This document shows, piece after piece, positions 11,596-34,788 of a stretch of 64,000 bases of DNA; position 1 is the stretch's first letter, and every line of letters begins with the position of its first letter. The notes beneath the pieces were generated by a model. That model was not told where the DNA came from. It was given only the letters and a program-made list of their open reading frames with translations, and did not search any database. Location: the NCBI RefSeq assembly GCF_018885265.1, contig NZ_CP076538.1:1586001-1650000 (forward strand), written 5' to 3'. Position numbers and translations under genes: made by a program. This DNA comes from Amycolatopsis aidingensis. GTDB taxonomy: Bacteria > Actinomycetota > Actinomycetes > Mycobacteriales > Pseudonocardiaceae.

Positions 11596-11609
11596 GTGAC
11601 TTTCGGCCC
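11596..11609 (+). promoter_or_regulatory. DosR-like box heading non-coding element 1
   Basis: GTGACTTTCGGCCC, identical to the box at 19422-19435 and matching 11 of 14 positions of the DosR core GGGACTWWAGTCCC. The identity with the second copy extends to 18 bp. Its centre (11602.5) lies 42.5 bp before the predicted start at 11645. It stands in the gap between two convergent genes, so there is no coding target. Confidence 0.6.
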
Positions 11610-11644
11610 TTTCTGGCTCGCCGGTTCCGGATGAGAGTGGAACC

Positions 11645-11754
11645 AGGCGTCACGTGGCTTCGCAGCCGAACGCGGCCAGTAGCAGGGGACCGGTCGCGAA
11701 CTCGGGCTGCATACGGGTCGCGGGGCGGCTGGACGGGCCAGCCAGCCGCCCCGC
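11645..11754 (+). ncRNA. candidate hypoxia-induced small RNA, copy 1
   Basis: Predicted from the box at 11596, a -10-like GAGAGT (11633-11638) and a terminal hairpin at 11720-11754. The region aligns with 19471-19582: shared blocks GAGAGTGGA, GGCTTCGCA, AGCAGGGG and the same 13-bp hairpin arms occur in the same order with similar spacing. CTTTC (11608-11612) and GAGAG can pair with one G-U, where copy 2 has all Watson-Crick pairs. Reading frames across it are not conserved between the copies. Ends are inferred, not measured. Confidence 0.5.
11720..11754. terminator. GC-rich hairpin ending element 1
   Basis: Perfect 13-bp stem: GCGGGGCGGCTGG (11720-11732), 9-nt loop, CCAGCCGCCCCGC (11742-11754). 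The same arms end element 2 at 19548-19582. No T-tract follows. It may also terminate the flavoprotein gene and the convergent cydDC gene. Confidence 0.65.
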
Positions 11755-11783
11755 AGGCCAGCTCGGCGCCGGACGGCCTGCCC

Positions 11784-14700
11784 CTATGGCAAGCGGACCA
11801 GGCGGGACGCTGTCTCGTCGAACGGCTGGACCGTGACGGCGGGGAGTCCGGGGAAGTCGTCTGGCCGATGGGTCACGATCAGCGCCGGACGGGTGGCGGC
11901 CAGCGCCGTGAGATCGGCCGCCAGTTCCGCGGCGTTGGCCCCGTCCAGGTGCGCGGTGGGTTCGTCCAGCAGAAGCACCGGCCGGTCGGCGAGCAGGGTT
12001 CGGGCGAGGCCGATGCGCTGCCGCTCGCCGCAGGAAAGGGGCGTGCCATGTGCGCCGAGCGCGGTGTCCAGGCCGTCCGGCAAGCCGTCAAGCCAGTCAC
12101 CGAGCCGGGCCCTGCGCAGGGACGTCACCAGTTCCGCTTCGGTCGCACCCGGCCTTGCGAGCAGCAGGTTGGCCCGCAGGGTGCTGTCGAAAAGGTGGGT
12201 TTCGGGCCCGCACCAGCCGATCCGGGCACGTGCGTCGGTACCCCGGCAGATGCGGGTGTCGGTCCCGTCCAGCAGCACACGGCCCGCTGACGGGTCGAGG
12301 TAGCACAGCAACGCGGCGAGCGCGGTGCTCTTTCCGGCGCCGGATGGCCCGGTGAGCAGGAGGCTGTGCCCTGCCGCCACCTGAAGGTCGAGGTCTCGTA
12401 CGGTGTCGAAGCGGGAGTCCGGCCAGCGAACCGAGAGCCGTTCGGTCTCGAGACTGCCTGCCGGTGGGGGAAGCTCGCCTGGCGCGGCGGGATCCGGACT
12501 CGGCGAGGGCAGCCGGTCCAGCTCGGCCAGCCGCCCCGCGCTGTGCCTGGCGCCCACCAGCCGTTGCGCCGCCTCGGGTAGGCCGGCGACCAGTTCGGCG
12601 GTGGCCAACGGGGTCAGCGCCAGCACGGCGAGTTCCGGGCCGGTAATCGTGCCGGAGCCGAGCGCGATGATGCCCAGCACGAGGGAACCGATCATCATCG
12701 TGCCGATGGCCAGCGTGGCGAATCCGGCGCAAAGGCCACGGGCCGCGGCTGACCGGCGCAACGCCGCGGTCAGCGCGGTGTCCGCCCGGACCAGCTCGGC
12801 CTGCCGCCGGCCGGCCGCGCCGAACGCGATCAGGTCGGGTGCGGCGGTCAGCAGCTCCACCGTTCCCGCGAGGACATCAGCTCGCAGCCCGGTGCTGCGC
12901 CGTTCGGCCCTGCGGGACAACAGCACGGACATCGCCGGCGCCACCAGGCCCGCGGCGAGCAGTCCGAGCAGGACGGCGAGGCCAGCCGACGGCAGCAGGA
13001 TGCCGATTCCGGCCGCGGTGCCGATGCCGACGACACCGGCAGCGGAAGCGGGCACCATCCCGCGTACCAGCACGTCCTGCTGTGCATCCACATCGGACAC
13101 AAGCCGGTTGAGCAGGTCGCCCCGGCGCAGCCTGCCAGCGGCTGCGGGGCCGACCCGCACCAGCGCCGCCCATACCTTGACCCGCAGCTCGGTCAGTGCG
13201 CGCAGGGCCACGTCGTGCGCGAGCAGCCGCTCGAGATACCGCAGCACCCCCTTGGCAAGGCCGAAGGTACGGACCGCGACGATGGCAACCATCAGCGAGA
13301 GCACTGGCGGTTGCAGGGCGGCCGAGGCGATCAACCAGGCCGAGGTCGCGGTCAGCGCGACCCCGCTGGCCAGCGCGGCGGCACCGGCAAGGCAGGCCAT
13401 TCCGAGCCGCAGCCGGTACGGCCGGATCGCGATGCGCAGCCAGCGCCGGGCGTGCCCGGAACTCACCGCGGGCCGCTGCACGGGTTCGCCGGGTGCGGGC
13501 TCGGCCGGTCCCGGTGCGGGCGTGGCCGCGGGCGGTGCGGGGGCGGTGGCGCCGCGCTCGGGAGCCGCGCCGGGTAGCCGCACGGTCCGGTCACAGCGGT
13601 CCAGCACCTCCCCCCGGTGACTCACCACGACCGCCGTGCGCCCGCGCAGCAGCATGGGCAGCTGCTCGAGGATCGCCCGCTCGGTGGCGGAGTCCACGCC
13701 CTCGGTCGGTTCGTCGAGCAGCAGTAGTGGACGGTCCAGCAGCAGCGCCCTCGCCAGCGCCACCCTCCGCTGTTGCCCGGTGGACAATCCGGCACCCAGC
13801 TCGCCGACCGGGGTGTCCAGTGGCACGTCCAGCGCCGCCTGCCGGGCCGCGGCGGCCACCTCGGCATCGCTTGCCGCGGCGAAACCGAGCCGGATGTTGT
13901 CCGCGACGGTGCCCGTGAGCAGCTGTGGTTGCTGGGGTACCCACGCGATCCGGCGTTGCCAGGCCGCGCGTTCCAGCTCGGCGAGGTCGACGCCGTCGAC
14001 GAAGACCCGCCCCGCGTCCGGCTGGTACCAGCCCAGCAGCAGGTCGAGCAGGGTCGACTTGCCCGACCCGCTCGGCCCGGTGACACCGAGGATCTCGCCG
14101 GGCTCGATCCGAAGGGTGAGGCCGTCCAGCACCGGCCCCGAACGCCCCCGCACCGTCACCGCGGACAGCCTCAGCGCCACCCTGGCGGGGTCGGGTGCAG
14201 GCGACCGGCCGCCGGGGCACGGGCCGGTGTCCTCCAGCAGTGTGAAGATCTCCTCCGCGGCGGCGACACCCTCGGCGCTGTCGTGGAAACGAGCACCGAC
14301 CGCCCGTAGCGGCAGGTAGATCTCCGGCGCCAGGATCAGCACCACGAGCGCGGTATGCAGGTCCAGCTCCCCGACCACGAGCCGGAGCCCGACGGAGACC
14401 GCGATCAGCGCCACGGACAGGGTGGCCAGCAACTCCAGTACCAGCGCGGAAAGGAAGGCCACGCGCAGCGTGCGCATCGTCCGGGCCCGGTACCGTTCGG
14501 TGATCTCGCGCAGCGTGCGCAGCTGGTCGCGGGCCCTGCCGAAGGCGGTCAACACCGCCAGCCCGGACACCAGATCGAGGAAATGGTTGCCAAGCACCGC
14601 CATCTGCCGCCACTGCCGGCGCGTGTCCCGCCTGGTGTAGAGCCCGATCAGGATCATGAAGATCGGGATGAGCGGGACGGTGAGCCCGGCGATGGCCGCG

Positions 14701-15179
14701 GCCACCCAGTCGGCGGTCAGGATGCGCACGCCGACCACGGCCGGCACGATCGCGGCGAGCAGCAGCTGGGGCAGGTAGCGGGCGAAGTAGCCGTCGAGCC
14801 GGTCCACCCCGCGGGTGGCGAGCGCGGCAAGGTCGGCGGTGGACCTGCCAGCGGCGCGTCCTGGGCCGGTGCGCAGCACATGCTCCACCACAGCGGTACG
14901 CAACTGGGCCAGCACTCCGGCGCTGGCCCGGTGTGCCGCGGTCTCGGCGAGCCAGGACACCACCGCCCTGCCGAGCACGATCAGGGCGAGCAGGCCGATC
15001 GGCACCGCGAGCGCGTCCAGCCCCGCGCCGCCGAGAAATGCCCCGGTCACCGCGGTCGCCAGCAGTTCGGCCTGGCCGAGCACCAGTACCGCGGTGAGCG
15101 CCCCGAGCGCGGCGCAGACCAGGATGAACGGCCTCGCCGCGCGTGCGTACCGGAGCAGCCGCGGGTCCAGCGGCCTCAT
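11784..15179 (-). CDS. cydDC: fused CydD-CydC thiol ABC exporter
   Basis: A 1131-aa protein joining both halves of the cysteine/glutathione-type exporter needed to assemble cytochrome bd. Residues ~20-310 are the CydD membrane domain (six helices). The first nucleotide-binding domain has Walker A GPSGSGKST near 364 and signature LSTGQQRRVALARAL. A Pro/Ala-rich linker (~540-565) leads to the CydC membrane domain (~580-870) and a second ATPase (GPSGAGKST near 943, signature LSCGERQRIGLARTL, LLLDEPTAHLDG). In E. coli the halves are separate; the fusion is common in actinobacteria. The ATG overlaps the cydB stop by 4 bases. It exports thiol to the outer face to keep the redox state needed for haem insertion. 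Confidence 0.95.
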   Translation of the reverse strand: MRPLDPRLLRYARAARPFILVCAALGALTAVLVLGQAELLATAVTGAFLGGAGLDALAVPIGLLALIVLGRAVVSWLAETAAHRASAGVLAQLRTAVVEHVLRTGPGRAAGRSTADLAALATRGVDRLDGYFARYLPQLLLAAIVPAVVGVRILTADWVAAAIAGLTVPLIPIFMILIGLYTRRDTRRQWRQMAVLGNHFLDLVSGLAVLTAFGRARDQLRTLREITERYRARTMRTLRVAFLSALVLELLATLSVALIAVSVGLRLVVGELDLHTALVVLILAPEIYLPLRAVGARFHDSAEGVAAAEEIFTLLEDTGPCPGGRSPAPDPARVALRLSAVTVRGRSGPVLDGLTLRIEPGEILGVTGPSGSGKSTLLDLLLGWYQPDAGRVFVDGVDLAELERAAWQRRIAWVPQQPQLLTGTVADNIRLGFAAASDAEVAAAARQAALDVPLDTPVGELGAGLSTGQQRRVALARALLLDRPLLLLDEPTEGVDSATERAILEQLPMLLRGRTAVVVSHRGEVLDRCDRTVRLPGAAPERGATAPAPPAATPAPGPAEPAPGEPVQRPAVSSGHARRWLRIAIRPYRLRLGMACLAGAAALASGVALTATSAWLIASAALQPPVLSLMVAIVAVRTFGLAKGVLRYLERLLAHDVALRALTELRVKVWAALVRVGPAAAGRLRRGDLLNRLVSDVDAQQDVLVRGMVPASAAGVVGIGTAAGIGILLPSAGLAVLLGLLAAGLVAPAMSVLLSRRAERRSTGLRADVLAGTVELLTAAPDLIAFGAAGRRQAELVRADTALTAALRRSAAARGLCAGFATLAIGTMMIGSLVLGIIALGSGTITGPELAVLALTPLATAELVAGLPEAAQRLVGARHSAGRLAELDRLPSPSPDPAAPGELPPPAGSLETERLSVRWPDSRFDTVRDLDLQVAAGHSLLLTGPSGAGKSTALAALLCYLDPSAGRVLLDGTDTRICRGTDARARIGWCGPETHLFDSTLRANLLLARPGATEAELVTSLRRARLGDWLDGLPDGLDTALGAHGTPLSCGERQRIGLARTLLADRPVLLLDEPTAHLDGANAAELAADLTALAATRPALIVTHRPDDFPGLPAVTVQPFDETASRLVRLP

Positions 15180-16198
15180 GCCTCACCGGCCGGAAGCCCC
15201 TGCGCGGCCGGAATCGTTCCGCGCCCGATCCGCTTGCGGAACACCCAGTACGTCCAGCCCTGGTAGGCCAGCACGACCGGGGTGAAGACCACCGCGACCC
15301 AGGTCATGATCTCCAGCGTGTACGGGGTGGACGCGGCATTGGTGGTGGTGAGACTGTTCGCGGCCGCGGACGTGGAGGGCAGCACCTCGGGGTAGAGCGA
15401 GCCGAACAGCGACACCGTGGTGGCCACGATCGCCACCGCGGTACCGGTGAACGCCCAGCCCTCGCGGTCGGCCCTGGCCGCGAGTACCCCGCCGAGCAGG
15501 GCGCAGGCGGCTACCGCCACGGCGAACCAGGTCCAGCCGGCGCCGTGCGCCAGTTGCGTCCATACCAGGAAGGTGCCGGCGAGTACGACGGCGAGGAGGC
15601 CGAGCGGCCAGGTGAGTGCGGCGGCCCGCAGCCGCACCGCCCCTGTGGTCTTGAGCGCGAGGAACACCGCCCCGTGCAGGGCGAACACCGAAAGGGTGGT
15701 GAGCCCTGCCAGCAAGGCGTAGGGGTTGAGCAGGGTGAAGAATGTGCCGGTGAAGTGGTGCTCGGCGTCTAGCGGTACCCCGCGCACGATGTTCCCGAAC
15801 GCCACGCCCCACAGCAGGGCCGGTACCAGCGATCCGGCGATGATGGCGCGGTCCCAGTTGCGGCGCCAGCGCACGCTGTCGATCTTGCCGCGGAACTCGA
15901 ACGCGACCCCCCGGAGGATCAGCGCCACCAGGATGATCAGCAGTGGCAGGTAGAACCCGGAGAACAGGCTCGCGTACCAGAGCGGGAAGGCCGCGAACGT
16001 CGCCCCACCCGCGACCAGCAACCAGACCTCGTTGCCGTCCCACACCGGGCCGATTGTGTTGATCATCACTCGGCGATCGGTGTTGTCCTTGCCCAGCACC
16101 CCGAGCAGCATCCCGACGCCGAAGTCGAAGCCCTCGAGTACGAAGTAGCCGGTCCACAGCACCGCGATCAGCAGGAACCAGATGTCGGTCAGCGGCAT
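15176..16198 (-). CDS. cydB: cytochrome bd ubiquinol/menaquinol oxidase subunit II
   Basis: A 340-aa membrane protein with about eight helices, starting MPLTDIWFLLIAVLWTGYF and carrying the subunit II signature LEGFDFGVGMLLGVLGKD and GPVWDGNEVWLL. It forms the quinol oxidase with CydA, reducing O2 to water at high affinity without proton pumping. ATG with GGAG 7 nt upstream; 31 bp downstream of cydA, and overlapping cydDC by ATGA. The operon is under DosR-like boxes upstream of cydA, consistent with use under low oxygen. Confidence 0.96.
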   Translation of the reverse strand: MPLTDIWFLLIAVLWTGYFVLEGFDFGVGMLLGVLGKDNTDRRVMINTIGPVWDGNEVWLLVAGGATFAAFPLWYASLFSGFYLPLLIILVALILRGVAFEFRGKIDSVRWRRNWDRAIIAGSLVPALLWGVAFGNIVRGVPLDAEHHFTGTFFTLLNPYALLAGLTTLSVFALHGAVFLALKTTGAVRLRAAALTWPLGLLAVVLAGTFLVWTQLAHGAGWTWFAVAVAACALLGGVLAARADREGWAFTGTAVAIVATTVSLFGSLYPEVLPSTSAAANSLTTTNAASTPYTLEIMTWVAVVFTPVVLAYQGWTYWVFRKRIGRGTIPAAQGLPAGEA

Positions 16199-16229: not shown

Positions 16230-17630
16230 TCAGTAGGCGAATGCGGCCGGTTTGGCCTCGTCGTCCGATGTGGACTCTTCTGCGGATTCCGGCTCCGGTG
16301 GCCCAGCCTTGGCGTAGCGGACCATCAGCACACCGTCCACCACGGCGAGTACCCCGTACAGCACGGTGAACACGATCAACGAGGTGAGTACCGTTCCGGC
16401 TGGGACCGAGGGGGATACGCTGTCGGCCGTACGCAGCACCCCGAACACCGACCACGGCTGACGTCCCATCTCGGTGAAGATCCAGCCCATGCTGTTGGCA
16501 AGGAACGGGGTCGCCACCGCGGCGATCGCCGCGCGGTAGAACCACCGTGAGCGCGGAACACGTCCCCTCCGGAAGGCCCATAGGCCGATCACCGACAGCA
16601 GGCCCATCAGGAAACCCAGCCCGATCATCACGCGGAAGGTCCAGTAGGTGACCGGGATGTTGGGCGTGTAGTCGCCGGGTCCGTGCGCTCGCTCCTGCGC
16701 CGCCTGCACGTCGTTGATCCCCTCGACCTCGCCGTCGAAGGAGCCGGTCGCCATGAAGGACAGCACCCTGGGTACCCGGATGCTGAACACCTCCTCCGAA
16801 CCGTCCAGCGAGCCGATGGTGAACAAGGAGAAGGAGGCCGGCGCCACGGTGTCGTACAGCGCCTCGGCCGCGGCCATCTTCATCGGCTGCTGCTGGGTCA
16901 TCAGCCTGGCCTGGAGGTCGCCGGTGAACACCACGCCTGCGCTCGCGATCAGCACCGTGACCAGCGCCAGCCGTATCGAGGGCCGGAAAACCTCGGTGCT
17001 GCGCCGCCGCTTGAGCTGCCAGGCGCTGATCGCGACCACGAAGACGCCGCCGGTGAGGAAGCAGGCGGTGATGGTGTGCGCGAACGCGCCCACGGCGGTG
17101 GAGTTGGTGAGTACCGCGCCGAAGTCGTTCAGCTCTGCCCTGCCGGTTGCCTCGTTGATCGTGTATCCGACGGGGTGCTGCATCCAGGAGTTCGCGGCGA
17201 GGATGAAGTACGCGGACAGCATGGTGCCGATCGCGGCCAGCCAGATCGTGGCCAGGTGCAGCCGCTTCGGCAGCCGGTCCCAGCCGAAGATCCACAGTCC
17301 GAGGAAGGTGGATTCCAGGAAGAACGCGAGCAGCCCTTCGATGGCGAGTGGTGCACCGAAAATGTCACCGACGAAGACGCTGTAGTCGCTCCAGTTCATC
17401 CCGAACTGGAATTCCTGCACGATGCCGGTCACCACACCCATGGCGAAGTTGATCAGGAACAGCTTTCCCCAGAACTTCGTCATGCGGCGGTACTTCTCGT
17501 TGCCGGTCCGGACCCACGCGGTCTGCATCATGGCGACGAGGAAGGAAAGGCCGATCGTCAGCGGAACGAAGATGAAGTGGTAGACGGTGGTGATACCGAA
17601 CTGCCATCTCGCCAGGTCCAGTGCGCTCAT
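16230..17630 (-). CDS. cydA: cytochrome bd ubiquinol/menaquinol oxidase subunit I
   Basis: A 466-aa membrane subunit holding haems b558, b595 and d. The N-terminus LARWQFGITTVYHFIFVPLTIG has the haem ligand His18 (E. coli His19). The GWDRLPKRLHLATIWL and SWMQHPVGY segments carry further conserved residues, including the His near residue 180. The periplasmic Q-loop is of the short type, and the mid-protein GRQPWSVFGVLRT is conserved. First gene of cydA-cydB-cydDC. ATG with GGGGAG 6 nt upstream. Two DosR-like boxes at 17696-17731 are shared with the divergent CBS gene; a -10-like CATGAT at 17671-17666 is in place for a start about 29 nt before the ATG. Confidence 0.96.
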   Translation of the reverse strand: MSALDLARWQFGITTVYHFIFVPLTIGLSFLVAMMQTAWVRTGNEKYRRMTKFWGKLFLINFAMGVVTGIVQEFQFGMNWSDYSVFVGDIFGAPLAIEGLLAFFLESTFLGLWIFGWDRLPKRLHLATIWLAAIGTMLSAYFILAANSWMQHPVGYTINEATGRAELNDFGAVLTNSTAVGAFAHTITACFLTGGVFVVAISAWQLKRRRSTEVFRPSIRLALVTVLIASAGVVFTGDLQARLMTQQQPMKMAAAEALYDTVAPASFSLFTIGSLDGSEEVFSIRVPRVLSFMATGSFDGEVEGINDVQAAQERAHGPGDYTPNIPVTYWTFRVMIGLGFLMGLLSVIGLWAFRRGRVPRSRWFYRAAIAAVATPFLANSMGWIFTEMGRQPWSVFGVLRTADSVSPSVPAGTVLTSLIVFTVLYGVLAVVDGVLMVRYAKAGPPEPESAEESTSDDEAKPAAFAY

Positions 17631-17695
17631 CAGTTCTCCCCGTGGTCACCGTGGATGCGCTGAGGATCATGCGCTGACCAGCCGGTTCGTCGTGA

Positions 17696-17731
17696 GGGCC
17701 CTTGGTCCCCAGCCGAGTGGACCTTGGTTCA
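17696..17731. promoter_or_regulatory. tandem DosR-like boxes between cydA and the CBS gene
   Basis: GGGCCCTTGGTCCC (17696-17709) and TGGACCTTGGTTCA (17718-17731), centres 22 bp apart, about two helical turns, as in tandem DosR sites. The first lies about 43 bp before a -10-supported start for cydA; the second is placed about 42 bp before a possible start for the CBS gene, though there the -10 is poor. The pair probably serves both directions. Confidence 0.7.
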
Positions 17732-17835: not shown

Positions 17836-18465
17836 ATGCGGGTAAGAGACTTGATGAGCAAGCCGGTGATCACGGTGACCGCCGACTGCCCGGTGCGGAG
17901 GGCCGCCGGGGTGCTGGCGCACCACGGGTTCAGCGCCTTGCCGGTAGTAGACGAGAGTGAGCGTCTCGCCGGCATCGTGACCGAGGCGGACCTGATGCGT
18001 GGCCGGTTCCCTCGGGACCGGACGCTGCTGACCGCGCGGGGTGAGCGCCTGCCGCCGATCGAACCAGCCACCACGGTGGGCCAGGTGATGATCACCAGGG
18101 TGATCTCGATCGGCGGCGAGGCCGATGTGGTCGACCTGGTCCGGTTGATGCTGGACGAGCGGCGACGCAGCGTGCCCGTTGTGGATGGTGACCGTTTGCA
18201 CGGCATCGCCACCGGGCGGGACGTCATGCGGGTGCTCGGCAGGAGTGATGAGGTGCTGGCCAGGGACATCAGGCACCGGCTTGCCTTCTTCGGCGGTCCG
18301 AGCAGGTGGACTGTCGAGGTGCACGACGGCAAGGCACGGATCGTCGACCGGTTCGACAGCGAGGTCGACCGGAGGGTGGCGACCGTGCTCGCAGAGAACG
18401 TGCCCGGGGTGGTCCGGGCCGAATGTGTCGCGGCGGAGTCGGCTTCCGCGGCCGGTGGGCGGTGA
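17836..18465 (+). CDS. CBS-pair and BON domain protein
   Basis: A 209-aa cytosolic protein. Two CBS motifs make up residues 1-130 (VRDLMSKPVITVTADCPV with SALPVVDESERLAGIVTEADL; VGQVMITRVISI with SVPVVDGDRLHGIATGRDVM), a Bateman module that binds adenosyl ligands. Residues ~145-200 (WTVEVHDGKARIVDRFDSEVDRR) are a BON domain. CBS-BON proteins are standard members of DosR-type dormancy regulons. I chose ATG at 17836, with GGAG upstream. Its stop overlaps the GTG of the universal stress gene, and it is preceded by tandem DosR-like boxes. Likely role: energy-state sensing in hypoxia; the ligand is not known. Confidence 0.92.
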   Translation: MRVRDLMSKPVITVTADCPVRRAAGVLAHHGFSALPVVDESERLAGIVTEADLMRGRFPRDRTLLTARGERLPPIEPATTVGQVMITRVISIGGEADVVDLVRLMLDERRRSVPVVDGDRLHGIATGRDVMRVLGRSDEVLARDIRHRLAFFGGPSRWTVEVHDGKARIVDRFDSEVDRRVATVLAENVPGVVRAECVAAESASAAGGR

Positions 18466-19361
18466 TCCCGGTGACCCCGGCCTCGATCCTGGTGGGCGTC
18501 GACGGCTCCGAGCAGTCCACGCGTGCGGTCCGCTGGGCTGCCGAGGAGGCGGCCCGCCGCGGCCGACCCGTGCGGCTGCTGCATTCCTACGGCCTGCCGA
18601 GCCTTGGCTATGACGAGGGACTGTTCTCCGCCGACTGGATGGATCCACTGCGGCTGCAGTCGGCGGAGCTGCTCGCCGCGGCGCGGGAGGCCGCTCTGGA
18701 CGAGTATCCGCAGCTGGACCTGACGGTGGAGTCCGTCGTGGACAGTCAGATTACGGTACTGATCGAATACTCTCGGTGGGCGGGTATGATCGTGCTCGGC
18801 GCGTCAGGAGCGGGCGGCTTTGCCGGCCGGCTGACCGGGTCTACAGCGGTGGCGGTCGCCGCGCATGCGCGTTGCCCGGTGGCGGTGATCCGGAATCGTC
18901 CGGACGGTACGACGGCCTGGGCCGGTCCGGTAGTCGTCGGCATCGACGGCAGCCCGGTGAGCGAGGCGGCGACGGCGTTCGCGTTCGAGGAGGCCGCGGT
19001 GCGGGGCGCGCCGCTGGTCGCGGTGCACGCGTGGAGCGACGCCGACTACGAGCAACTGTTCAGTGAGGCCCGGTTCGCGGCCGACTTCGAGCCGCTGCGG
19101 AATACCGAGGAACGCCTGCTGGCCGAGCGGCTGGCCGGCTGGTCGGAGAAGTACCCCGAGGTCCAGGTCGAACGTGTGCTGATGCTGGACCGGCCCCGTG
19201 CGGCGTTGATCGAGCGGAGCACCAAGGCGCAGCTGATCGTGGTGGGCAGTCGCGGCCGGGGCGGGTTCCGTGGGTTGCTGCTCGGCTCGACCAGTCAGGC
19301 GCTGCTGCATCATGCCGGCTGCCCGGTCGTGGTGGTCCGACCTACCGGCGGCAGGCACTGA
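18462..19361 (+). CDS. tandem-domain universal stress protein
   Basis: A 299-aa protein with two UspA domains (residues ~5-145 and ~153-295). Each starts with a strand-Asp motif (ILVGVDGSEQS; VVVGIDGSPVS) and ends with the ATP-binding glycine motif G-2x-G-9x-G-S/T: GASGAGGFAGRLTGST and GSRGRGGFRGLLLGST. Both are intact, so both domains should bind ATP. The GTG start overlaps the CBS gene stop (GTGA). Length and architecture match the DosR-controlled USPs of mycobacteria and the OsdR-linked USPs of Streptomyces. A small GGCGG-TGC-CCGCC hairpin lies 43 bp after the stop. Confidence 0.95.
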   Translation: MIPVTPASILVGVDGSEQSTRAVRWAAEEAARRGRPVRLLHSYGLPSLGYDEGLFSADWMDPLRLQSAELLAAAREAALDEYPQLDLTVESVVDSQITVLIEYSRWAGMIVLGASGAGGFAGRLTGSTAVAVAAHARCPVAVIRNRPDGTTAWAGPVVVGIDGSPVSEAATAFAFEEAAVRGAPLVAVHAWSDADYEQLFSEARFAADFEPLRNTEERLLAERLAGWSEKYPEVQVERVLMLDRPRAALIERSTKAQLIVVGSRGRGGFRGLLLGSTSQALLHHAGCPVVVVRPTGGRH

Positions 19362-19421: not shown

Positions 19422-19435
19422 GTGACTTTCGGCCC
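19422..19435 (+). promoter_or_regulatory. DosR-like box heading non-coding element 2
   Basis: GTGACTTTCGGCCC, identical to 11596-11609. Centre 19428.5; a -10-like GAGAGT at 19460-19465 predicts a start near 19472, 43 bp away. A weak partner (ACGACGGCGGTGCC, 19400-19413, 8 of 14 positions) lies 22 bp upstream. Confidence 0.65.
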
Positions 19436-19470
19436 TTTCCGGTGCACCCCGGCCCGAAAGAGAGTGGACG

Positions 19471-19582
19471 CAGGTTTCGTGTTCGGGGCTTCGCAACCGA
19501 GTTGCGGTCGGCAGCAGGGGCCGGATCGAGGCGCGGTTGCCCGCGGAGCGGGGCGGCTGGACCGGCTGGCCAGCCGCCCCGC
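19471..19582 (+). ncRNA. candidate hypoxia-induced small RNA, copy 2 (or structured leader of the DUF1876 gene)
   Basis: Same arrangement as element 1: box, GAGAGT, GGCTTCGCA (19487-19495), AGCAGGGG (19513-19520), then hairpin 19548-19582. CTTTC and GAAAG (19434-19460 region) can form a perfect 5-bp stem at the front of the aligned block. A DUF1876 gene begins 43 bp after the hairpin, so this could be a free sRNA ended by the hairpin or a 5' leader with an attenuator. The stand-alone copy at 11.6 kb favours the sRNA reading. Ends are inferred. Confidence 0.5.
19548..19582. terminator. GC-rich hairpin ending element 2
   Basis: Perfect 13-bp stem with arms identical to those at 11720-11754; only the 9-nt loop differs. 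No T-tract follows. It lies between the DosR-like box and the ribosome site of the DUF1876 gene. Confidence 0.65.
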
Positions 19583-19624
19583 TGACTACCTCCCATAGTT
19601 CGGTCGTTTCGAGAGGAGAGAGCT

Positions 19625-19891
19625 GTGCAGGAAAAGCAATGGAGAATCGATGTCTTCATCGACGAGCACGAGGATCGAACCAGGGCGCAAGCGCGGCTGC
19701 ACAACCGGGATGAGACCAACCTGGTCGGCGTCGGCATGGCCAGGCGGAATCCGCGCGATGTGAACGTACCGGAGATCGGTGACGAGCTGGCAGTGTCCCG
19801 AGCGCTGTCCGAACTCGCGCACAAGTTGTTGGAGGCGGCGGCAGGCGACATCGAGGCGATCACCCACAAGCCGGCGAACCTGGCGGGGTGA
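19625..19891 (+). CDS. DUF1876 family protein, Rv1738-like
   Basis: An 88-aa protein matching the DUF1876 family: [20 protein letters not shown] at residues 6-25, [11 protein letters not shown], the strongly conserved [22 protein letters not shown], and ITHKPANL at the end. Mycobacterial Rv1738 is one of the most strongly induced DosR-regulon genes; its structure resembles ribosome hibernation factors. GTG start with GGAGAG upstream. Preceded by a DosR-like box and element 2. Expected role: translation shut-down or ribosome protection in hypoxia, inferred from the homologue. Confidence 0.93.
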
Positions 19892-22050: not shown

Positions 22051-22085
22051 TCACCCAGTCTCGGCCGACCGGCGCGGTGGCACAG

Positions 22086-22121
22086 GGGGAGATCGTCCCC
22101 GCCCGTACGGCCGAAAGTCCT
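22086..22121 (-). promoter_or_regulatory. tandem DosR-like boxes of the sulfur-relay operon
   Basis: On the minus strand GGGACGATCTCCCC (22099-22086) and AGGACTTTCGGCCG (22121-22108), centres 22 bp apart. The proximal centre (22092.5) is exactly 42.5 bp from the GTG of the SQR-like gene, with GAGACT at -12 to -7. This predicts a leaderless mRNA under DosR-type activation. Confidence 0.7.
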
Positions 22122-23993: not shown

Positions 23994-24007
23994 GTGACCT
24001 TGGTCCC
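23994..24007. promoter_or_regulatory. DosR-like box between narK and narG
   Basis: GTGACCTTGGTCCC, one mismatch from GGGACCTTGGTCCC. The centre (24000.5) is 43.5 bp from the narG ATG, and TTGGGT occupies 24032-24037 at the -12 to -7 position, so narG may be leaderless. In the other direction it would place a narK start near 23956. Confidence 0.7.
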
Positions 24008-24043
24008 TGGCTTGCGCTCCCGCTGTTCGGTTTGGGTAGGCCC

Positions 24044-27000
24044 ATGTCTGACCCGCTGCTGCCCGCTCGCCGGTTGCTCAGTCGCGCGGAGGTCTCCGCG
24101 GACGGGCACACCCTGCACCAGATCGACCCTTCGGAATGGGATCGGTTCTATCGAGACCGCTGGGCACATGACAAGGTCGTCCGCTCCACCCACGGGGTGA
24201 ACTGCACCGGGTCCTGCTCCTGGCAGGTTTTCGTCAAGGACGGGCTGATCACCTGGGAGCACCAGGCCACCGACTACCCGTCGGCCGGAGCCGACTCCCC
24301 GGAGTACGAGCCGCGTGGCTGCCCGCGCGGTGCGTCCTTCTCCTGGTACACCTACTCGCCGTCCCGGGTGCGCTATCCCTACGTCCGTGGTGTGCTGCTG
24401 GAGATGTGGCGGGAGGCGCGGCAGCGGCTCGGGGATCCGGTCGCGGCCTGGGCCGAGATCACCGGTGACGCCGAACGCGCGCGAACCTACAAACGCGCTC
24501 GCGGCAAAGGCGGATTCGTCCGGTCCACATGGGAGGAGGTAACCGAACTCGTCGCGGCCGCGCACGTGCATACCACCAAGACCTTCGGCCCGGATCGTGT
24601 CGTCGGTTTCTCGCCCATTCCGGCGATGTCGATGGCCTCCTTCGCGGCGGGTACCCGTTACCACTCGCTGATCGGCGGTACCTTGTTGTCGTTCTACGAC
24701 TGGTACGCCGACCTCCCGGTCGCCTCACCACAGGTGTGGGGCGACCAGACCGATGTGCCGGAGTCCGCCGACTGGTGGAACTCCAGCTACCTGGTCATGT
24801 GGGGTTCGAACATTCCGGTGACCCGCACTCCGGATGCGCACTTCCTCACCGAGACGCGCTACCGCGGCGCCAAGATCGTCGCGGTCAGCCCGGACTACGC
24901 CGACAACGTCAAGTTCGCAGACGACTGGCTGGCTCCGCATCCGGGAACCGACGGTGCACTGGCGATGGCGATGGGGCACGTGATCCTCACCGAGTTCTTC
25001 CGCGACCGTGAGGTGCCGTACTTCTCCGGTTACGTGCGCCGGTACACCGATCTGCCGTTCCTGGTCACCCTCGAGCGACGGGGTGACTCGTTCCAGGCAG
25101 GCAAGTTCCTGACCGCGGCCGACCTCGGCGAGGAAGGCGAGGGAGCGGAGTTCAAGACGGTGCTGCTCGACGACCGCACCGGCGGGACGGTGATCCCGAA
25201 CGGCTCGCTCGGTTTCCGGTGGACGGAGTCGGGCAAGGGCCGGTGGAACCTGGAGCTCGGCGACGTCGATCCGGCGCTGTCCCTGTACCGCTGGGCCGGT
25301 GAGCACCTGCCGGTGGAACTTCCCCGGTTCGATGTCGGCGGGGGTGAGGGCGGCGGCACGATGCGGCGTGGCGTGCCCGCGCTGCGCGTCGGCGACCGGC
25401 TGGTCACCACCGTTTTCGACTTGTTGCTCGCGCAGTACGGCGTGTACCGGCCCGAGCTTCCAGGGGAATGGCCACGGTCCTACGCGGACGCGAGCCTGCC
25501 GTACACGCCGGCATGGGCCGAGGAGATCACCTCGGTCCCCGCCGCGACGACGGCCCGGATCGCCAGGGAGTTCGCGCGCAACGCGGAGCGCTCCGAGGGC
25601 CGTTCGATGATCGCGATGGGTGCGGGGACCAACCACTGGTTCCACTCCGACACGATCTACCGGGCCTTTCTCTCTCTGGTGCTGCTCACCGGCTGCCAGG
25701 GCCGCAACGGTGGCGGGTGGGCGCACTACGTCGGACAGGAGAAGGCCCGCCCGGTCACCGGGATGCAGCACCTGGCGTTCGCGTTCGACTGGCAGCGGCC
25801 GACCAGGCATATGGCCGGCACGGCTTTCTGGTATCTGGCCACCGACCAGTGGCGATACGAAGGTTTCCGCGCCGACGAGCTGGCCAGCCCGCTCGGCAAG
25901 GGGGAGCTCGCGGGTAAGGCGTTTGCCGACTGCAATGCCAAGGCCGCGCGCCTCGGCTGGCTGCCGTCGCATCCCACCTTCAACCGCAACCCGCTCACCG
26001 TCGCGGAGGAGGCCGCGCGGGCAGGCCGCGACCCGGCCGAGCATGTGGTCGCCGAGCTGCGCGCCGGGTCCCTCCGGTTCGCCGCGGAAGATCCGGACGA
26101 TCCGGTCAACTTCCCGCGCGCGCTGACCGTGTGGCGGGCCAACCTGCTGGGTTCCTCAGGGAAGGGCAACGAATACTTCCTGCGCCACCTGCTCGGTGCC
26201 GATGCCTCGGTGCGTAGCGAGGAGACGCCGGCAGGGAGCCGGCCGCAGGAGGTGGCATGGCACGCCGACGCTCCCGATGGCAAGCTCGACCTGCTCACCA
26301 CGGTGGACTTCCGGATGACCTCGACCGCGCTGTTCGCCGACGTCGTTCTGCCCGCGGCGACCTGGTACGAGAAGCACGATCTGTCCACAACAGACATGCA
26401 TCCGTTCGTACATGCCTTCAACCCGGCCATCGCGCCGCCGTGGGAGACACGTTCGGACTACGACACCTTCCTCGGCATCGCCGACCGGTTCGCCGAGCTG
26501 GCCAAGGACCACCTCGGTACCCGTACCGACATCCTCGCGGTACCGCTCGCCCACGACACCCCGGACGAGCTCGCCCAGCCCGGTGGGCGGGTGCGGGACT
26601 GGAAGCTCGGGGAATGCGAGCCGGTACCGGGCAAAACGATGCCAAAACTGATCACCATCGAACGCGACTACCCCGCGATCGGGGCGAAGATGCGGGCGAT
26701 CGGTCCGTTGCTGGACGAGCTCGGCACCACCACCAAGGGGATCACCTACGATGTGTTACCCGAACTCGGATACCTGCGCAGCCAGAACGGCGTGCGCACC
26801 GGCGGTGTCGCCGACGGCCGCCCGTCGCTGGCGACGGCGGAACACATGTGCGAGGCGATTCTCGCCCTGTCCGCCGCCACCAACGGGCGCCTTGCCGCGC
26901 AGGGCTTTCAGACACTCGAGCGGCGTACCGGCACCAGGCTGGCCGATCTCGGCACCGAGCACGCGGGTAGCCGGATCTCCTTCGAGGACACGAAGAAGGG

Positions 27001-27694
27001 GCCGCAACCGGTACTCACCTCCCCGGAGTGGTCGGGCAGCGAGAGCGGAGGAAGGCGGTACTCGGCCTTCGTGATCAACGTCGAGCGGGACAAGCCGTGG
27101 CATACACTCACCGGGCGCCAGCAGTTCTTCGTCGATCACGACTGGATGACCGAGTTCGGTGAGCAGCTCCCGGTGTACCGGCCGCCACTGAACATGTCGG
27201 GCCACTTCGGGGATCAGCGGCTCGGCACCGGCGGGGCCGAGGTCACCGTCCGTTACCTTACGCCGCATTCGAAGTGGTCGATTCACTCCGAGTACCAGGA
27301 CAACGCCCACATGCTGGCGCTGTCCCGCGGCGGGCCGACGATCTGGATGTCTACAGTGGACGCCGCGAAGATCGAGGCGGCGGACAACGACTGGGTCGAG
27401 GCATACAACCGCAACGGGGTCGTCGTCGCGAGGGCTGTCGTTTCGCACCGGATGCCTGCCGGAACGGTCTACATGTACCACGCCAAGGACCGCAACGTGA
27501 ACGTGCCGAGGACCGAGCTGGACGGCAAGCGGGGCGGTGTGCACAACTCGCTGACCCGCCTGCTGCTCAAGCCGACCCACCTCATCGGCGGCTACGGCCA
27601 GTTCACCTACGCCTTCAACTACTACGGCCCCACCGGAAACCAGCGCGACGAGGTCACCGTGATCCGTCGCCGCGGCCAGGAGGTGACCTACTGA
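24044..27694 (+). CDS. narG: respiratory nitrate reductase alpha subunit
   Basis: A 1216-aa Mo-bis-MGD catalytic subunit. The N-terminal HGVNCTGSCSWQVFVKDG and RGCPRG form the FS0 [4Fe-4S] site with its His ligand. YDWYADLP with WGDQTDVPESADWWNSSYL is the molybdenum region carrying the Asp ligand, and GRQQFFVDHDWM and PHSKWSIHSEY are the conserved C-terminal parts. There is no twin-arginine signal, so the active site faces the cytoplasm, as in NarG rather than NapA. It reduces nitrate to nitrite with electrons from menaquinol through NarI and NarH. First gene of narGHJI-nirK-copD-like; its stop overlaps narH by one base. Confidence 0.98.
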   Translation: MSDPLLPARRLLSRAEVSADGHTLHQIDPSEWDRFYRDRWAHDKVVRSTHGVNCTGSCSWQVFVKDGLITWEHQATDYPSAGADSPEYEPRGCPRGASFSWYTYSPSRVRYPYVRGVLLEMWREARQRLGDPVAAWAEITGDAERARTYKRARGKGGFVRSTWEEVTELVAAAHVHTTKTFGPDRVVGFSPIPAMSMASFAAGTRYHSLIGGTLLSFYDWYADLPVASPQVWGDQTDVPESADWWNSSYLVMWGSNIPVTRTPDAHFLTETRYRGAKIVAVSPDYADNVKFADDWLAPHPGTDGALAMAMGHVILTEFFRDREVPYFSGYVRRYTDLPFLVTLERRGDSFQAGKFLTAADLGEEGEGAEFKTVLLDDRTGGTVIPNGSLGFRWTESGKGRWNLELGDVDPALSLYRWAGEHLPVELPRFDVGGGEGGGTMRRGVPALRVGDRLVTTVFDLLLAQYGVYRPELPGEWPRSYADASLPYTPAWAEEITSVPAATTARIAREFARNAERSEGRSMIAMGAGTNHWFHSDTIYRAFLSLVLLTGCQGRNGGGWAHYVGQEKARPVTGMQHLAFAFDWQRPTRHMAGTAFWYLATDQWRYEGFRADELASPLGKGELAGKAFADCNAKAARLGWLPSHPTFNRNPLTVAEEAARAGRDPAEHVVAELRAGSLRFAAEDPDDPVNFPRALTVWRANLLGSSGKGNEYFLRHLLGADASVRSEETPAGSRPQEVAWHADAPDGKLDLLTTVDFRMTSTALFADVVLPAATWYEKHDLSTTDMHPFVHAFNPAIAPPWETRSDYDTFLGIADRFAELAKDHLGTRTDILAVPLAHDTPDELAQPGGRVRDWKLGECEPVPGKTMPKLITIERDYPAIGAKMRAIGPLLDELGTTTKGITYDVLPELGYLRSQNGVRTGGVADGRPSLATAEHMCEAILALSAATNGRLAAQGFQTLERRTGTRLADLGTEHAGSRISFEDTKKGPQPVLTSPEWSGSESGGRRYSAFVINVERDKPWHTLTGRQQFFVDHDWMTEFGEQLPVYRPPLNMSGHFGDQRLGTGGAEVTVRYLTPHSKWSIHSEYQDNAHMLALSRGGPTIWMSTVDAAKIEAADNDWVEAYNRNGVVVARAVVSHRMPAGTVYMYHAKDRNVNVPRTELDGKRGGVHNSLTRLLLKPTHLIGGYGQFTYAFNYYGPTGNQRDEVTVIRRRGQEVTY

Positions 27695-29253
27695 TGCGGG
27701 TCATGGCGCAGATCGCGATGGTGCTGAACCTGGACAAGTGCATCGGCTGCCACACCTGTTCGGTCACCTGCAAGCAGACCTGGACCAACCGGGACGGCAC
27801 CGAGTACGTCTGGTTCAACAACGTGGAGACCAAGCCGGGAGTCGGTTACCCGAAGCGTTACGAGGACCAGCAGCGCTGGCGCGGTGGCTGGCAGCTGGAC
27901 CGGCGCGGGAGGCTGAAGCTGCGTTCCGGGGGCCGGGTCAGGCGGCTGCTCAACCTGTTCGCCAACCCGGACCTCCCCTCGATCGACGACTACTACGAAC
28001 CGATCACCTACGACTACGACACCCTGCTGAACGCACCGGCAGGCGCGCATACTCCGGTCATCCGGCCCAAGTCCGCGCTCACCGGTAAGGACACGGCGAT
28101 CACCTGGGGCGCCAACTGGGAGGACGACCTCGGCGGCGCGGCCGAGCACGCGGGAGGTGACCCGAACATCGGCGGGATGCCGAAGGCGGCCGCGGACAAG
28201 GTCCGGTTCGAGTTCGAGCGGACGTTCATGTTCCACCTGCCCCGGATCTGCGAGCACTGCCTCAACCCGGCCTGCGTGTCGGCCTGCCCTTCCGGGGCGA
28301 TGTACAAGCGCGTCGAGGACGGCATCGTGCTGGTCGACCAGCACCGTTGCCGGGGGTGGCGGATGTGCGTGTCGGCCTGCCCCTACAAGAAGGTCTACGT
28401 CAACCACCACACCGGCAAGGCCGAGAAGTGCACTTTCTGCTTCCCCCGGATCGAGGCGGGGCAGCCGACCGTGTGCGCGGAGACCTGCGTCGGCAGGCTG
28501 CGCTACATCGGGGTTCTGCTCTACGACGCGGACGCGGTGGCCGCGGCGGCAAGCGTGCCCGACCCGGCCGATCTGCTCGAAGCCCAGCGCGAGGTCTTCC
28601 TCGATCCGGCCGATCCCGCCGTCATCGAGGCGGCGCGCGCCGAGGGGATCCCGGAGGACTGGCTGGCGGCGGCGCGCCGCTCCCCGGTGTACGACCTCGC
28701 CATCCGCTACCGTGTCGCGCTCCCGCTGCATCCGGAGTACCGCACCATGCCGATGGTCTGGTACATCCCGCCGCTGTCCCCCGTGCTGGACGCGGTTTCC
28801 GATGCGGATGGTGACAACGCCGACCCGGACGATGTGTTCCACGCCATCCGTGACCTGCGCATCCCGGTGGAGTACCTGGCGAGCCTGTTCAGCGCTGGCG
28901 ACACTGAGGTGGTCGCGGGCGTGCTGATGAAGCTCGCCGCGATGCGCGGATACATGCGCGAGCGCACGCTCGACGGGAGCGCGCCGGAGGAGCTGGCCGC
29001 CGCTGTCGGGATGCCCGCGACGGACATCGAGGCGATGTACCGGCTGCTGGCGATAGCCAAGTACGAGCAACGCTACGTCATCCCGGCGACCCACAAGGAG
29101 GAAGCGGCCGGGCTGGCCGGGCTGACCACGGGCTGCAGCCTCGACTCGGCCGGCGGGCCGGGCATGGGCAGCACCGATGGGAACGGGGGCCGAAGGGTGC
29201 ACCTGCCGCTGAGCGTGGTGTCCGGCAACCGGGGCAGGGAGGCGAGGTCATGA
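27694..29253 (+). CDS. narH: respiratory nitrate reductase beta subunit
   Basis: A 519-aa electron-transfer subunit with four Fe-S clusters. Cysteine groups: LDKCIGCHTCSVTCKQTW near residue 12, CEHCLNPACVSACPSGA near 188, HRCRGWRMCVSACPYKK near 220 (Trp in place of a Cys, the mark of the [3Fe-4S] cluster) and KCTFCFPRIEAGQPTVC near 245. The ATG overlaps the narG stop; the AGGAGGTGA ribosome site is inside narG. It passes electrons from NarI haem to NarG. Its 3' end overlaps narJ (ATGA). Confidence 0.98.
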   Translation: MRVMAQIAMVLNLDKCIGCHTCSVTCKQTWTNRDGTEYVWFNNVETKPGVGYPKRYEDQQRWRGGWQLDRRGRLKLRSGGRVRRLLNLFANPDLPSIDDYYEPITYDYDTLLNAPAGAHTPVIRPKSALTGKDTAITWGANWEDDLGGAAEHAGGDPNIGGMPKAAADKVRFEFERTFMFHLPRICEHCLNPACVSACPSGAMYKRVEDGIVLVDQHRCRGWRMCVSACPYKKVYVNHHTGKAEKCTFCFPRIEAGQPTVCAETCVGRLRYIGVLLYDADAVAAAASVPDPADLLEAQREVFLDPADPAVIEAARAEGIPEDWLAAARRSPVYDLAIRYRVALPLHPEYRTMPMVWYIPPLSPVLDAVSDADGDNADPDDVFHAIRDLRIPVEYLASLFSAGDTEVVAGVLMKLAAMRGYMRERTLDGSAPEELAAAVGMPATDIEAMYRLLAIAKYEQRYVIPATHKEEAAGLAGLTTGCSLDSAGGPGMGSTDGNGGRRVHLPLSVVSGNRGREARS

Positions 29254-29876
29254 CCGATCGGGCTCGCGTGCTGCGACTGGTTTCGTTGCTGCTCCAGTAC
29301 CCGGACGAGGAACTGCTCGCCGGGCGGGCGGAGCTCGCCGGTGCCGTGCGGCGACTGACCGATCCGGCGCAGCGCGCGCATCTGGACGGGTTCCTCGACT
29401 GGTTCCTGGCCGCGGACCCGCTGGAGCCTGCGCGGCACTACGTGGAGACCTTCGACCTGCGCAGGCGCAGCAGCCTCTACCTGACCTACTACCTGCACGG
29501 CGACACCCGGCGGCGCGGGATGGCGCTGCTGTTGCTCAAGCAGCGGTATCGCGCCGCGGGTCTCGTCCCGCCGGCGGGTGAGCTACCCGACTTCCTGCCC
29601 ATTGTGTGCGAGTTCGCGGCGCTCGAGGGGCAGCGGGGCGAGGCGCCGTTGCGGCAGCACCGCCAGGGCATCGAGCTCATCCGTACCGCGTTGCACGAAG
29701 CCGGATCCCCGTACGCGGGCGTGCTCGACGCGTTGTGCGAGCTGCTGCCCGGGCTGTCCGCCGCGCAACGCAGGGCGCTGACCGAGCTGGCTGCGGACGG
29801 ACCGCCTGCCGAGGAGGTCGGCCTGGATCCCTTCGTCCCGCCGCAGTACCTGACCGGAACGGAGGCGAGGGCATGA
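29250..29876 (+). CDS. narJ: nitrate reductase molybdenum cofactor assembly chaperone
   Basis: A 208-aa helical chaperone of the NarJ/TorD family, starting MTDRARVLRLVSLLLQYPDEELL, with the family block YVETFDLRRRSSLYLTYYLHGDTRRRGMALLLLK divided between residues 70-105 and ELPDFLPIVCEF near 112. It is not part of the mature enzyme; it binds apo-NarGH and allows cofactor insertion and membrane docking. It overlaps both narH and narI by 4 bases. Confidence 0.97.
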   Translation: MTDRARVLRLVSLLLQYPDEELLAGRAELAGAVRRLTDPAQRAHLDGFLDWFLAADPLEPARHYVETFDLRRRSSLYLTYYLHGDTRRRGMALLLLKQRYRAAGLVPPAGELPDFLPIVCEFAALEGQRGEAPLRQHRQGIELIRTALHEAGSPYAGVLDALCELLPGLSAAQRRALTELAADGPPAEEVGLDPFVPPQYLTGTEARA

Positions 29877-33536: not shown

Positions 33537-33614
33537 CGCCCAACGGTCCTCGTGGCGCGGGCTGTACTCGGTCGCGCTCCACGGTATCTCGCCGTGCGCC
33601 GTCTCAGGCGCCGG

Positions 33615-34682
33615 TCAGTAACGGAGCAGGGCGGCGACCGTGGATCGGCCCGGTGCCCCGGGGTAGACGGTGCCGCCGGTGCGCAGCGTGCCGACCACCG
33701 CGGGCTCCAGCGCCGGGTCCGCGCCTTCCGGCAGGAACAGCACCGCTATCCGGCCGGACTCGGCCGCCGCGAGCACCTCGGCCTGCCGGTCGAGGGCGAG
33801 GTCGGTACCTTCCGCGGCGCGGAAGGCGGCCGCCGCCTCGGCGGCGCGGCTGGCGAAAAGCGGTTCCACCAGTGCCCATGCCCGTGCGTGCAGTTCGGCG
33901 GCCGTCAACCTGTCCGGGCTGCCCTCGATACCTTCGCGCAGCACGTGCGGGTAGCTGGTGAGTCCGCGGTAGGCGGCCCTGATCCGGTCTACCCCGGCCA
34001 GTACGAGGGGCACTCGTTCGCTGGGCAGGCTGCCACGCAGTGCCTTGTCCACGATCCGTAGGTATCGGTGCAAGCGTTCGTTCTCGAGTTCGGCACCGAC
34101 GCCCTGGCCGTGCTGGATCGTCCGCACCCGCAGTCCGAACCGCTCCCCGGTGTGGAACCCGTGCTCACGCCCCGGCTGGTCGAACCGCAGTGCCCCGGCG
34201 ATCCCGTGTGGCAGGTCCGGTACCGCGACCTGGTGTATCCGGTCTCGCGTCCCGGACAGCAGCCTGGTCTGGTTCTCGCTCAGCGCCAGCACGAGGAAGC
34301 GCCCGTCCTCGGTGAGCAGGGGAAGCAGCGGGGAGATGTGGAAGCGGTCGGCCACGAGCACCCGCTCGGCGAAGGCGCGTGGCAGGCGGAACCAGCGGGC
34401 CCAGCCCGCGCGCAGGAACAACGCGAGCCCATCACTTTGGTGCCGCCAGAAACCGGCGTTCGCCACCAGCTCGTTCGCCGGCCGCAGGATGTCCGCGATC
34501 CGTGCTCCCCGCAGCCCCGTGCCGAGCAGTTCTGCGCGCGCGCTGTCGAGGAGGTTACGCAGCCGGATGGGGTCCTGTCCGGTCGCCGATCCGCTGCGGT
34601 GTGTCGGCAGGTAGACCGACACGCTGGGTGCCGGTGGCTGCCTGATCAGCAGGTCCAGCTCCGCGCGGGAAAGCAGGTCCAC
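33615..34682 (-). CDS. baeRF-family protein, Rv2629-like
   Basis: A 355-aa protein of the bacterial archaeo-eukaryotic release factor group (baeRF, related to Rv2629). It has an N-terminal VSVYLPTHRSGSATGQDPIRL block, a central LFLRAGWARWFRLPRAFAER(V) and FHISPLLPLL (residues ~85-130), an RNase H-like VPLVLAGVDRIRAAYRGLT, and a C-terminal L7Ae-like AVLAAAESGRIAVLFLPEG. Such proteins are thought to act on ribosomes; Rv2629 is a DosR-regulon gene. GTG start with AAGGAG 6 nt upstream. Two DosR-like boxes lie 70-106 bp upstream. Likely role: ribosome-associated response in hypoxia, inferred. Confidence 0.85.
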   Translation of the reverse strand: MDLLSRAELDLLIRQPPAPSVSVYLPTHRSGSATGQDPIRLRNLLDSARAELLGTGLRGARIADILRPANELVANAGFWRHQSDGLALFLRAGWARWFRLPRAFAERVLVADRFHISPLLPLLTEDGRFLVLALSENQTRLLSGTRDRIHQVAVPDLPHGIAGALRFDQPGREHGFHTGERFGLRVRTIQHGQGVGAELENERLHRYLRIVDKALRGSLPSERVPLVLAGVDRIRAAYRGLTSYPHVLREGIEGSPDRLTAAELHARAWALVEPLFASRAAEAAAAFRAAEGTDLALDRQAEVLAAAESGRIAVLFLPEGADPALEPAVVGTLRTGGTVYPGAPGRSTVAALLRY

Positions 34683-34751
34683 GGCAGCTCCTTAGGATCG
34701 CCCGGTGAGCTCGTCCAGCTCAGCCTGACCGCAACCTCGCGGCGGGCGAGA

Positions 34752-34788
34752 GAGCCGATGGTCCCTGGTCCGGAAGGGCTCAGGTCCC
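34752..34788 (-). promoter_or_regulatory. DosR-like boxes upstream of the baeRF gene
   Basis: On the minus strand GGGACCATCGGCTC (34765-34752) and, 23 bp further up, GGGACCTGAGCCCT (34788-34775, weaker). The proximal centre is about 43 bp before a start predicted by CAGGCT (34727-34722), leaving a ~33-nt leader. Confidence 0.65.

Follow-up and report, generated by a model that had tools for sequence, protein, structure and literature searches.

A putative DosR-type hypoxia regulon in Amycolatopsis aidingensis with cytochrome bd, a sulfur operon and a duplicated candidate RNA among its predicted targets

A 64,000-nucleotide stretch of the Amycolatopsis aidingensis chromosome (NZ_CP076538.1, positions 1,586,001 to 1,650,000; hereafter the window, numbered from its first letter) very probably forms a chromosomal arm of a DosR (DevR/OsdR-type) hypoxia regulon, with the mechanism and targets that we propose here. 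In this model, a haem-GAF DosS kinase would respond to a drop in oxygen by phosphorylating DosR. DosR dimers would then bind palindromic GGGAC-N4-GTCCC-like boxes, often in tandem at 22-23 bp, and would activate promoters in which a degenerate NANNNT -10 hexamer follows a proximal box, the centre of this box lying about 42.5 bp ahead of the transcription start. The predicted targets are a second cytochrome bd operon (cydAB-cydDC), an operon for a sulfide:quinone oxidoreductase (SQR) with DsrC and DsrE, the DUF1876, baeRF and PLDc_N genes, probably narK/narGHJ, and a transcript that appears to be non-coding and is present twice. Judged from its sequences, the regulon is of the ordinary kind; its predicted new reach takes in cytochrome bd (at the majority of family loci examined), the sulfur operon (in a few genera) and the duplicated candidate RNA (in this genome). 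An initial annotation had already read the stretch as a DosR/OsdR-type regulon, and the orthologous regulator, the DosS kinases and the density of intergenic box matches support that interpretation.

Indeed, the genome, a single contig of 7.66 Mb, encodes the regulator presupposed by this interpretation. At 5,121,122 lies a DosR orthologue (L018:6122-6766) that matches M. tuberculosis DevR with E 2.1e-93, the next family, VraR, following at 4.5e-39, and its predicted promoter carries at -96 the box GTGACCTTGGTCCC, identical in sequence to the box between narK and narG in the window. Three close DosS/DosT relatives are encoded in the same genome. The DosS relative L046:3429-5414 (661 aa) is a single open frame with a GAF-A domain of the DosT/DevS kind (E about 1e-55 against DevS, 1.9e-62 against 2vzw); this putative sensor domain keeps the histidine of the HPPM stretch, which we take to be the haem ligand. 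In the DosS relatives L019:7844-9597 and L038:5156-6954, GAF-A lies in a different frame, so that these are pseudogenes or contain sequence errors. A universal stress protein (USP) gene beside a DosS copy has a box, GGGACTTTCGACCC, at L019:10631-10644, about 111 bp before its start. The helix stretch KTVKNYV is common to the 12 DosR-like regulators that we compared and absent from two other LuxR regulators. Two further candidates for DosR were rejected: the LuxR regulator of the window (45887-46795), which is nearer to VraR and lacks the helix stretch, and L052:4103-4819, a regulator with a box of its own that reaches 36% to DosR. At the latter locus (L052:4045-4819), a LuxR-type regulator other than DosR has a DosR-like box, about 50 bp ahead of the first position at which its frame could start.

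Ten boxes in the window had been described initially under the consensus GGGAC-N4-(GTCCC/GGCCC). All ten sites are present, but the consensus proved too generous: only the box at 17696 fits GGGACN4GKCCC exactly, six (11596, 17696, 19422, 22487, 23994 and 34752) fit with at most one mismatch, and by our own count from the site sequences there are two mismatches at 22086, 22108 and 34775 and three at 17718. Matches of the bare motif with at most one mismatch are, moreover, not enriched in the window (22 versus 38.9 expected). We therefore rejected bare-pattern enrichment as evidence and used instead a matrix that is independent of the window sequence, derived from 26 S. coelicolor OsdR sites in the table of PMC5069765, mostly predictions, some of them gel-shifted there. 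With this matrix, eight of the ten sites, palindromic like those of the DosR/DevR/OsdR regulon, fall within the top 23 places of the 64 kb; the two that fail are 17718, at rank 2123, and 34775, at rank 2188. Of the 23 scores of at least 6.8 in the window, 11 are intergenic versus 1.9 expected at an intergenic share of 8.2% (some gene starts were set by hand for this count), and eight of these 11 are boxes of the initial annotation. Automatic gene calls, which bury some boxes in over-long frames, gave five intergenic matches in 992 bp of the region versus seven in 33,521 bp of background from 15 sampled stretches of the same genome (p 1.3e-5). The comparison with random intergenic DNA that had been proposed as a check thus yields a density about 24 times that of the sampled background and does not refute the annotation.

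Could the boxes be chance matches in G+C-rich DNA, chosen by eye, with only the OsdR-like gene neighbourhood being real? The bare pattern, rarer than in shuffles, and the two boxes that fail the matrix would fit such a view. It is countered by the independent matrix, the background sampling, a fixed spacing to the -10 hexamer and conservation across genomes, and we consider it highly improbable.

For transcription to start 42-43 bp from the box, a -10 hexamer has to begin 30.5 or 31.5 bp away from the box centre. A hexamer of the pattern NANNNT stands at these offsets in six of the eight window promoters (p 1.9e-7), in 6/9 when the CBS/USP direction is included (p 5e-7) and in 6/13 over all sites and directions scored (p 9e-6). 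The spacing of -42.5 claimed initially thus holds for the six promoters for which a hexamer had been named (both non-coding elements, cydA, SQR, PLDc_N and baeRF) and fails for narG, narK and, in its own direction, CBS/USP, none of which has a hexamer at either offset. The same geometry recurs in relatives of the DUF1876 locus. Among 33 distinct loci with a matrix score of at least 7.5 within 300 bp upstream, offsets 30.5 and 31.5 hold eight hexamers each, whereas other offsets average 0.67 and never exceed 4; clustering at 75% identity leaves 32 loci, with 7 and 8 hexamers at the two offsets. Window promoters and relatives together would place the proximal box about 42.5 bp before the start. 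In 25 relatives with a cydA box, the main hexamer peak lies at 52.5-55.5 (5, 5, 4 and 6 hexamers), one tandem spacing further out, and is less clean because offset 17.5 equals its top value of 6, and 19.5 and 67.5 hold 4 each. A second box-like sequence at these 25 loci has its lowest mean mismatch at 22 bp (4.6), followed by 23 bp (5.24), against 6.78 overall. The tandem spacing of 22-23 bp is thus borne out in general by the cydA relatives, but not by the weak window partners at 17718 and 34775.

Cytochrome bd is a high-affinity oxidase that keeps cells respiring at low oxygen. The cydA gene of the window is not the housekeeping copy, which lies at 180,054 and is 59% identical. Since the window CydA is closer to the CydA of some other families (68-69% identity) than to the copy of its own genome, acquisition by transfer is suggested, and window-type cydABDC adjoins dosR and dosS relatives in three genomes (G041, G004 and G058; loci L218, L220 and L221). 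At 25 of 30 loci, the window included, a box with no more than one mismatch is found less than 150 bp from cydA, versus 2/210 control pieces and 29/1500 shuffles. In a second set of 40 loci, from which G048 with its distant CydA was excluded for the count, a box lies within 250 bp in 32/35 cydA loci from DosR-bearing genomes and in 0/4 from DosR-less ones (shuffles 61/2000). Over both sets, the box is found at 57 of 63 loci with DosR in the genome, called at E 1e-50, which takes in paralogues, and at none of six without. As the DosR-less genomes G002 and G080 have only distant CydA, four clean DosR-less comparisons remain, from two genera. Outside the family, 16 of 39 class-level cydA loci (sampled from 43 listed places outside the genome itself) carry a box, five of them perfect, against about 3% by chance if the shuffle rate of the second set holds here; none was found at four loci each of the families f2 (same order), f19 and f20. 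The initial annotation, which had regarded cytochrome bd as an addition made here, was too narrow, the box upstream of cydA being common in the family and found beyond it. No site closer than three mismatches to a Rex consensus was found upstream of cydA in 79 loci, which speaks weakly against Rex control. By eye, the upstream regions of the boxless cydA of L185, L186, L259, L260, L261 and L296 show a TAC/GTA dyad, perhaps the operator of another regulator.

Cytochrome bd thus appears to be under DosR-family control generally in Pseudonocardiaceae, often with a DosR paralogue near the cyd operon: at least 28 of 93 typed cydA places have a DosR-family regulator within 20 kb. Such a paralogue also lies near the housekeeping cyd operon of the genome (L037:9187-9801, 53% to DosR), the cydA of which carries boxes at -73 and -50. 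This linkage raises the question whether the cydA boxes are real but bound mainly by a cyd-linked paralogue, so that cytochrome bd would form a small regulon of its own with a look-alike box, run by a separate two-component system whose signal is perhaps other than oxygen. Many housekeeping boxes (GGGACCWWGGTCCC) indeed score low to middling with the OsdR matrix. The window cydA box, however, scores 12.3, the recognition-helix stretch is identical in DosR and the paralogue, and the second-clade cydA of L218, L220 and L221 adjoins relatives of DosR (59-64%) and DosS (47-49%). We regard the separate cyd regulon as possible but rather unlikely, and favour control of the window operon by DosR. As for the wider picture, we see an even chance that DosR-family control of cytochrome bd is widespread and possibly ancestral in Actinomycetes. 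On that view, a DosR paralogue would lie near the housekeeping cyd genes, another cyd operon, with DosR as its neighbour, would move between genera, mycobacteria and streptomycetes would be exceptions, and in this genome the regulon would also drive a recently duplicated small RNA.

Besides the unenriched bare pattern, the two boxes that fail the matrix and the promoters without a hexamer, several observations weigh against assigning the window to a DosR regulon. The dosR gene lies outside the window, 3.5 Mb away. Twelve of the window's matrix matches of at least 6.8 fall inside genes, and only 34 of the 108 DUF1876 loci scanned have an upstream match at the threshold used above. The window SQR boxes (7.4 and 6.8) stay below the level of 7.6 that bounds 95% of background best-of-320-bp scores (99% level, 10.0). 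Six of the 63 cydA loci with DosR in the genome are boxless: L181, L200, L203, G098, G059 (two mismatches) and the second cydA of G004. L181 is the nearest relative of the window cydA (85%), and L200 and L203, of one genus, lack the box despite DosR-family regulators within 5 kb of cydA.

The most unusual predicted targets are two copies of a non-coding element, each with a box GTGACTTTCGGCCC and a -10-like hexamer at the required offset (Table 1). Positions 11590-11754 and 19416-19582 are 74% identical over 165 bp (E 6e-18), and the parts best kept are the box, the -10 hexamer and the stem of the terminal hairpin. The folding z-scores of the copies are -2.5 and -3.1. Full-length relatives were not found elsewhere. 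Neither copy exceeded the gathering score of an Rfam family, the hairpin alone giving sub-threshold miRNA-type matches. A covariance model of the element, run with strict filters on 79 other genomes of the genus, found nothing at E 0.01. It reached no better than E 0.68 among 79 named DUF1876 loci, and its best E of 0.038 among 21 further loci (L222) was taken as chance. In 150 family genomes, blastn gave only short partial matches in ten other genomes (34-65 bp, E 5e-6 to 9e-5), confined to the hairpin-bearing 3' part. With nhmmer, no relative better than E 0.12 (L067) was found in the blastn and DUF1876 loci; besides two weak matches to inner stretches, what remained matched the promoter portion (E 0.4-9.5). 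The box stands 197 bp ahead of DUF1876 in the window, whereas relatives that have a matrix match commonly show it at about 60 to 130 bp; the leader or RNA of element 2 therefore looks like a lineage-specific insertion that was then duplicated.

An alternative with a substantial though lesser chance is that both elements are duplicated 5' leaders or short-peptide genes rather than small RNAs. Element 2 ends 40 bp before DUF1876, one frame is open across both copies with the shared residues ASQP, AGRLD and ASRPA, and the two full-length copies in the window are the only ones among the sequences searched. On the other hand, indels within the element shift the frame, the 13-bp hairpin is identical in both copies and the other helix has one compensatory pair (1 of 19 pairs, a weak sign), and copy 1 has no called same-strand gene downstream before 17893. 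We thus prefer to read the elements as candidate small RNAs. Copy 1 (11640-11757) runs head-on into the 3' end of cydDC (11784-15179). The title of PMC11446857 links the DosR-regulated RNA MTS1338 to CydC in M. tuberculosis. In that species, a DosR site lies just upstream of the start of this structured RNA of about 110 nt, also named DrrS, in the account of PMC5360333. The arrangement of a DosR-type site upstream of a candidate RNA is alike, an analogy that claims no kinship; unlike DrrS, the window has two paralogous copies, not found in the 79 other genomes of the genus.

The SQR of the sulfur operon occurs, at E 1e-60, in only four of 100 family genomes, and the other three keep the order SQR-DsrC-DsrE, with best upstream matrix scores of 16.4, 8.8 and 6.2. 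Judged against background, one upstream match is strong (16.4) and one moderate (8.8), while those of the window and of the weakest genome are not significant alone; the window pair gains support because of its 22-bp spacing and its -10 hexamer. Among the remaining targets, the CBS-BON protein of the initial annotation has a clear CBS pair, whereas BON is weak (15.2 bits against a cut-off of 27). After narGHJ, at the place expected for NarI, stands a 1068-aa protein (29893-33099, +). Its residues 694-1066 match a copper nitrite reductase with N-terminal cupredoxin (E 1.2e-46), and its first 680 residues have no Pfam match.

Table 1. Features of the window discussed in the text, in order of position.
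Feature	Position	Strand	Remark
Box GTGACTTTCGGCCC, element 1	11596..11609	+	matrix 10.8, rank 6 of 64 kb
-10-like hexamer GAGAGT, element 1	11633..11638	+	30.5 bp from box centre
Candidate small RNA, copy 1	11640..11757	+	13-bp G+C hairpin at end; convergent with cydDC 3' end
CydDC fusion ABC transporter (cytochrome bd assembly)	11784..15179	-	two ABC units; name from position beside cydAB
CydB	15176..16198	-	
CydA, second clade	16230..17630	-	by sequence comparison
-10-like hexamer CATGAT, cydA	17666..17671	-	31.5 bp from box centre
Proximal box GGGACCAAGGGCCC, cydA	17696..17709	-	centre -72; OsdR matrix 12.3
Possible weak distal box, cydA	17718..17731	-	fails matrix; box at about -94 in several relatives
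CBS-domain protein	17893..18465	+	BON below cut-off
Tandem universal stress protein	18306..19361	+	longest frame
Box GTGACTTTCGGCCC, upstream of element 2 and DUF1876	19422..19435	+	OsdR matrix
-10-like hexamer GAGAGT, element 2	19460..19465	+	31.5 bp from box centre
Candidate small RNA/leader, copy 2	19467..19585	+	74% identity to copy 1
Rv2632c-like (DUF1876) protein	19625..19891	+	
DsrE2-like protein	19954..20421	-	
DsrC/TusE-like protein	20458..20775	-	single C-terminal Cys
Sulfide:quinone oxidoreductase relative	20803..22050	-	E 1.8e-42
-10-like hexamer GAGACT, SQR operon	22057..22062	-	30.5 bp from box centre
Proximal box, SQR operon	22086..22099	-	matrix 6.8
Distal box, SQR operon	22108..22121	-	matrix 7.4; 22 bp from proximal box
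PLDc_N small protein	22175..22423	-	start taken at 22423 inside frame 22175-22483
-10-like hexamer CATCCT, PLDc_N	22457..22462	-	31.5 bp from box centre
Box, PLDc_N	22487..22500	-	matrix 7.9
MFS transporter	22643..23878	-	NarK-type by position
Intergenic box GTGACCTTGGTCCC, narK/narG	23994..24007	.	matrix 6.9; no hexamer at required offset on either side
narG, narH, narJ	24032..29876	+	
baeRF family protein	33615..34682	-	baeRF families in Pfam; likened to Rv2629 in the initial annotation
-10-like hexamer CAGGCT, baeRF	34722..34727	-	31.5 bp from box centre
Proximal box, baeRF	34752..34765	-	matrix 10.9
Claimed distal box, baeRF	34775..34788	-	unsupported by matrix (rank 2188)

How does this putative regulon compare with known ones? 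It shares with the DosR/DevR regulon of M. tuberculosis and M. smegmatis a DosR orthologue, a DevS-type GAF-A kinase, palindromic boxes, a proximal box over the -35 region, and USP, nar and DUF1876 targets. Unlike there, cydA and the SQR operon carry boxes in the window. PMC7739888 places cydAB outside the 49-gene DevR regulon of M. smegmatis and states, as data not shown, that cydA induction is unchanged in a devR deletion. In PMC7719681, control of cydAB in mycobacteria is attributed to SenX3-RegX3 and Crp; according to PMC6898941, PrrAB also acts on cydA and dosR in M. smegmatis. The OsdR regulon of S. coelicolor has a near-identical box (AGGGACCTTCGGCCCC before narG2) and likewise includes USP and nar targets; the site table of PMC5069765, in contrast, holds no cytochrome bd gene, and the word 'cytochrome' is absent from the main text of that paper. 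S. coelicolor cydAB is described as Rex-controlled in PMC7739888. Sulfide is reported in PMC6987094 to raise 31 of 48 Dos genes in M. tuberculosis. Our literature search, limited to open-access full text, turned up no account of cydA or SQR being controlled by DosR in Pseudonocardiaceae.

In summary, the boxes upstream of cydA, above all those of relatives, suggest that, unlike in mycobacteria, the DosR system here would also turn on the high-affinity oxidase. Current models of dormancy keep oxygen sensing by DosS/DosR separate from the induction of cytochrome bd. If our proposal is true, most members of a large actinomycete family would have oxygen sensing wired directly to an oxygen-scavenging terminal oxidase, a connection that mycobacteria would either have lost or never have possessed. 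The SQR operon and the duplicated candidate RNA would extend the known reach of the regulon further.

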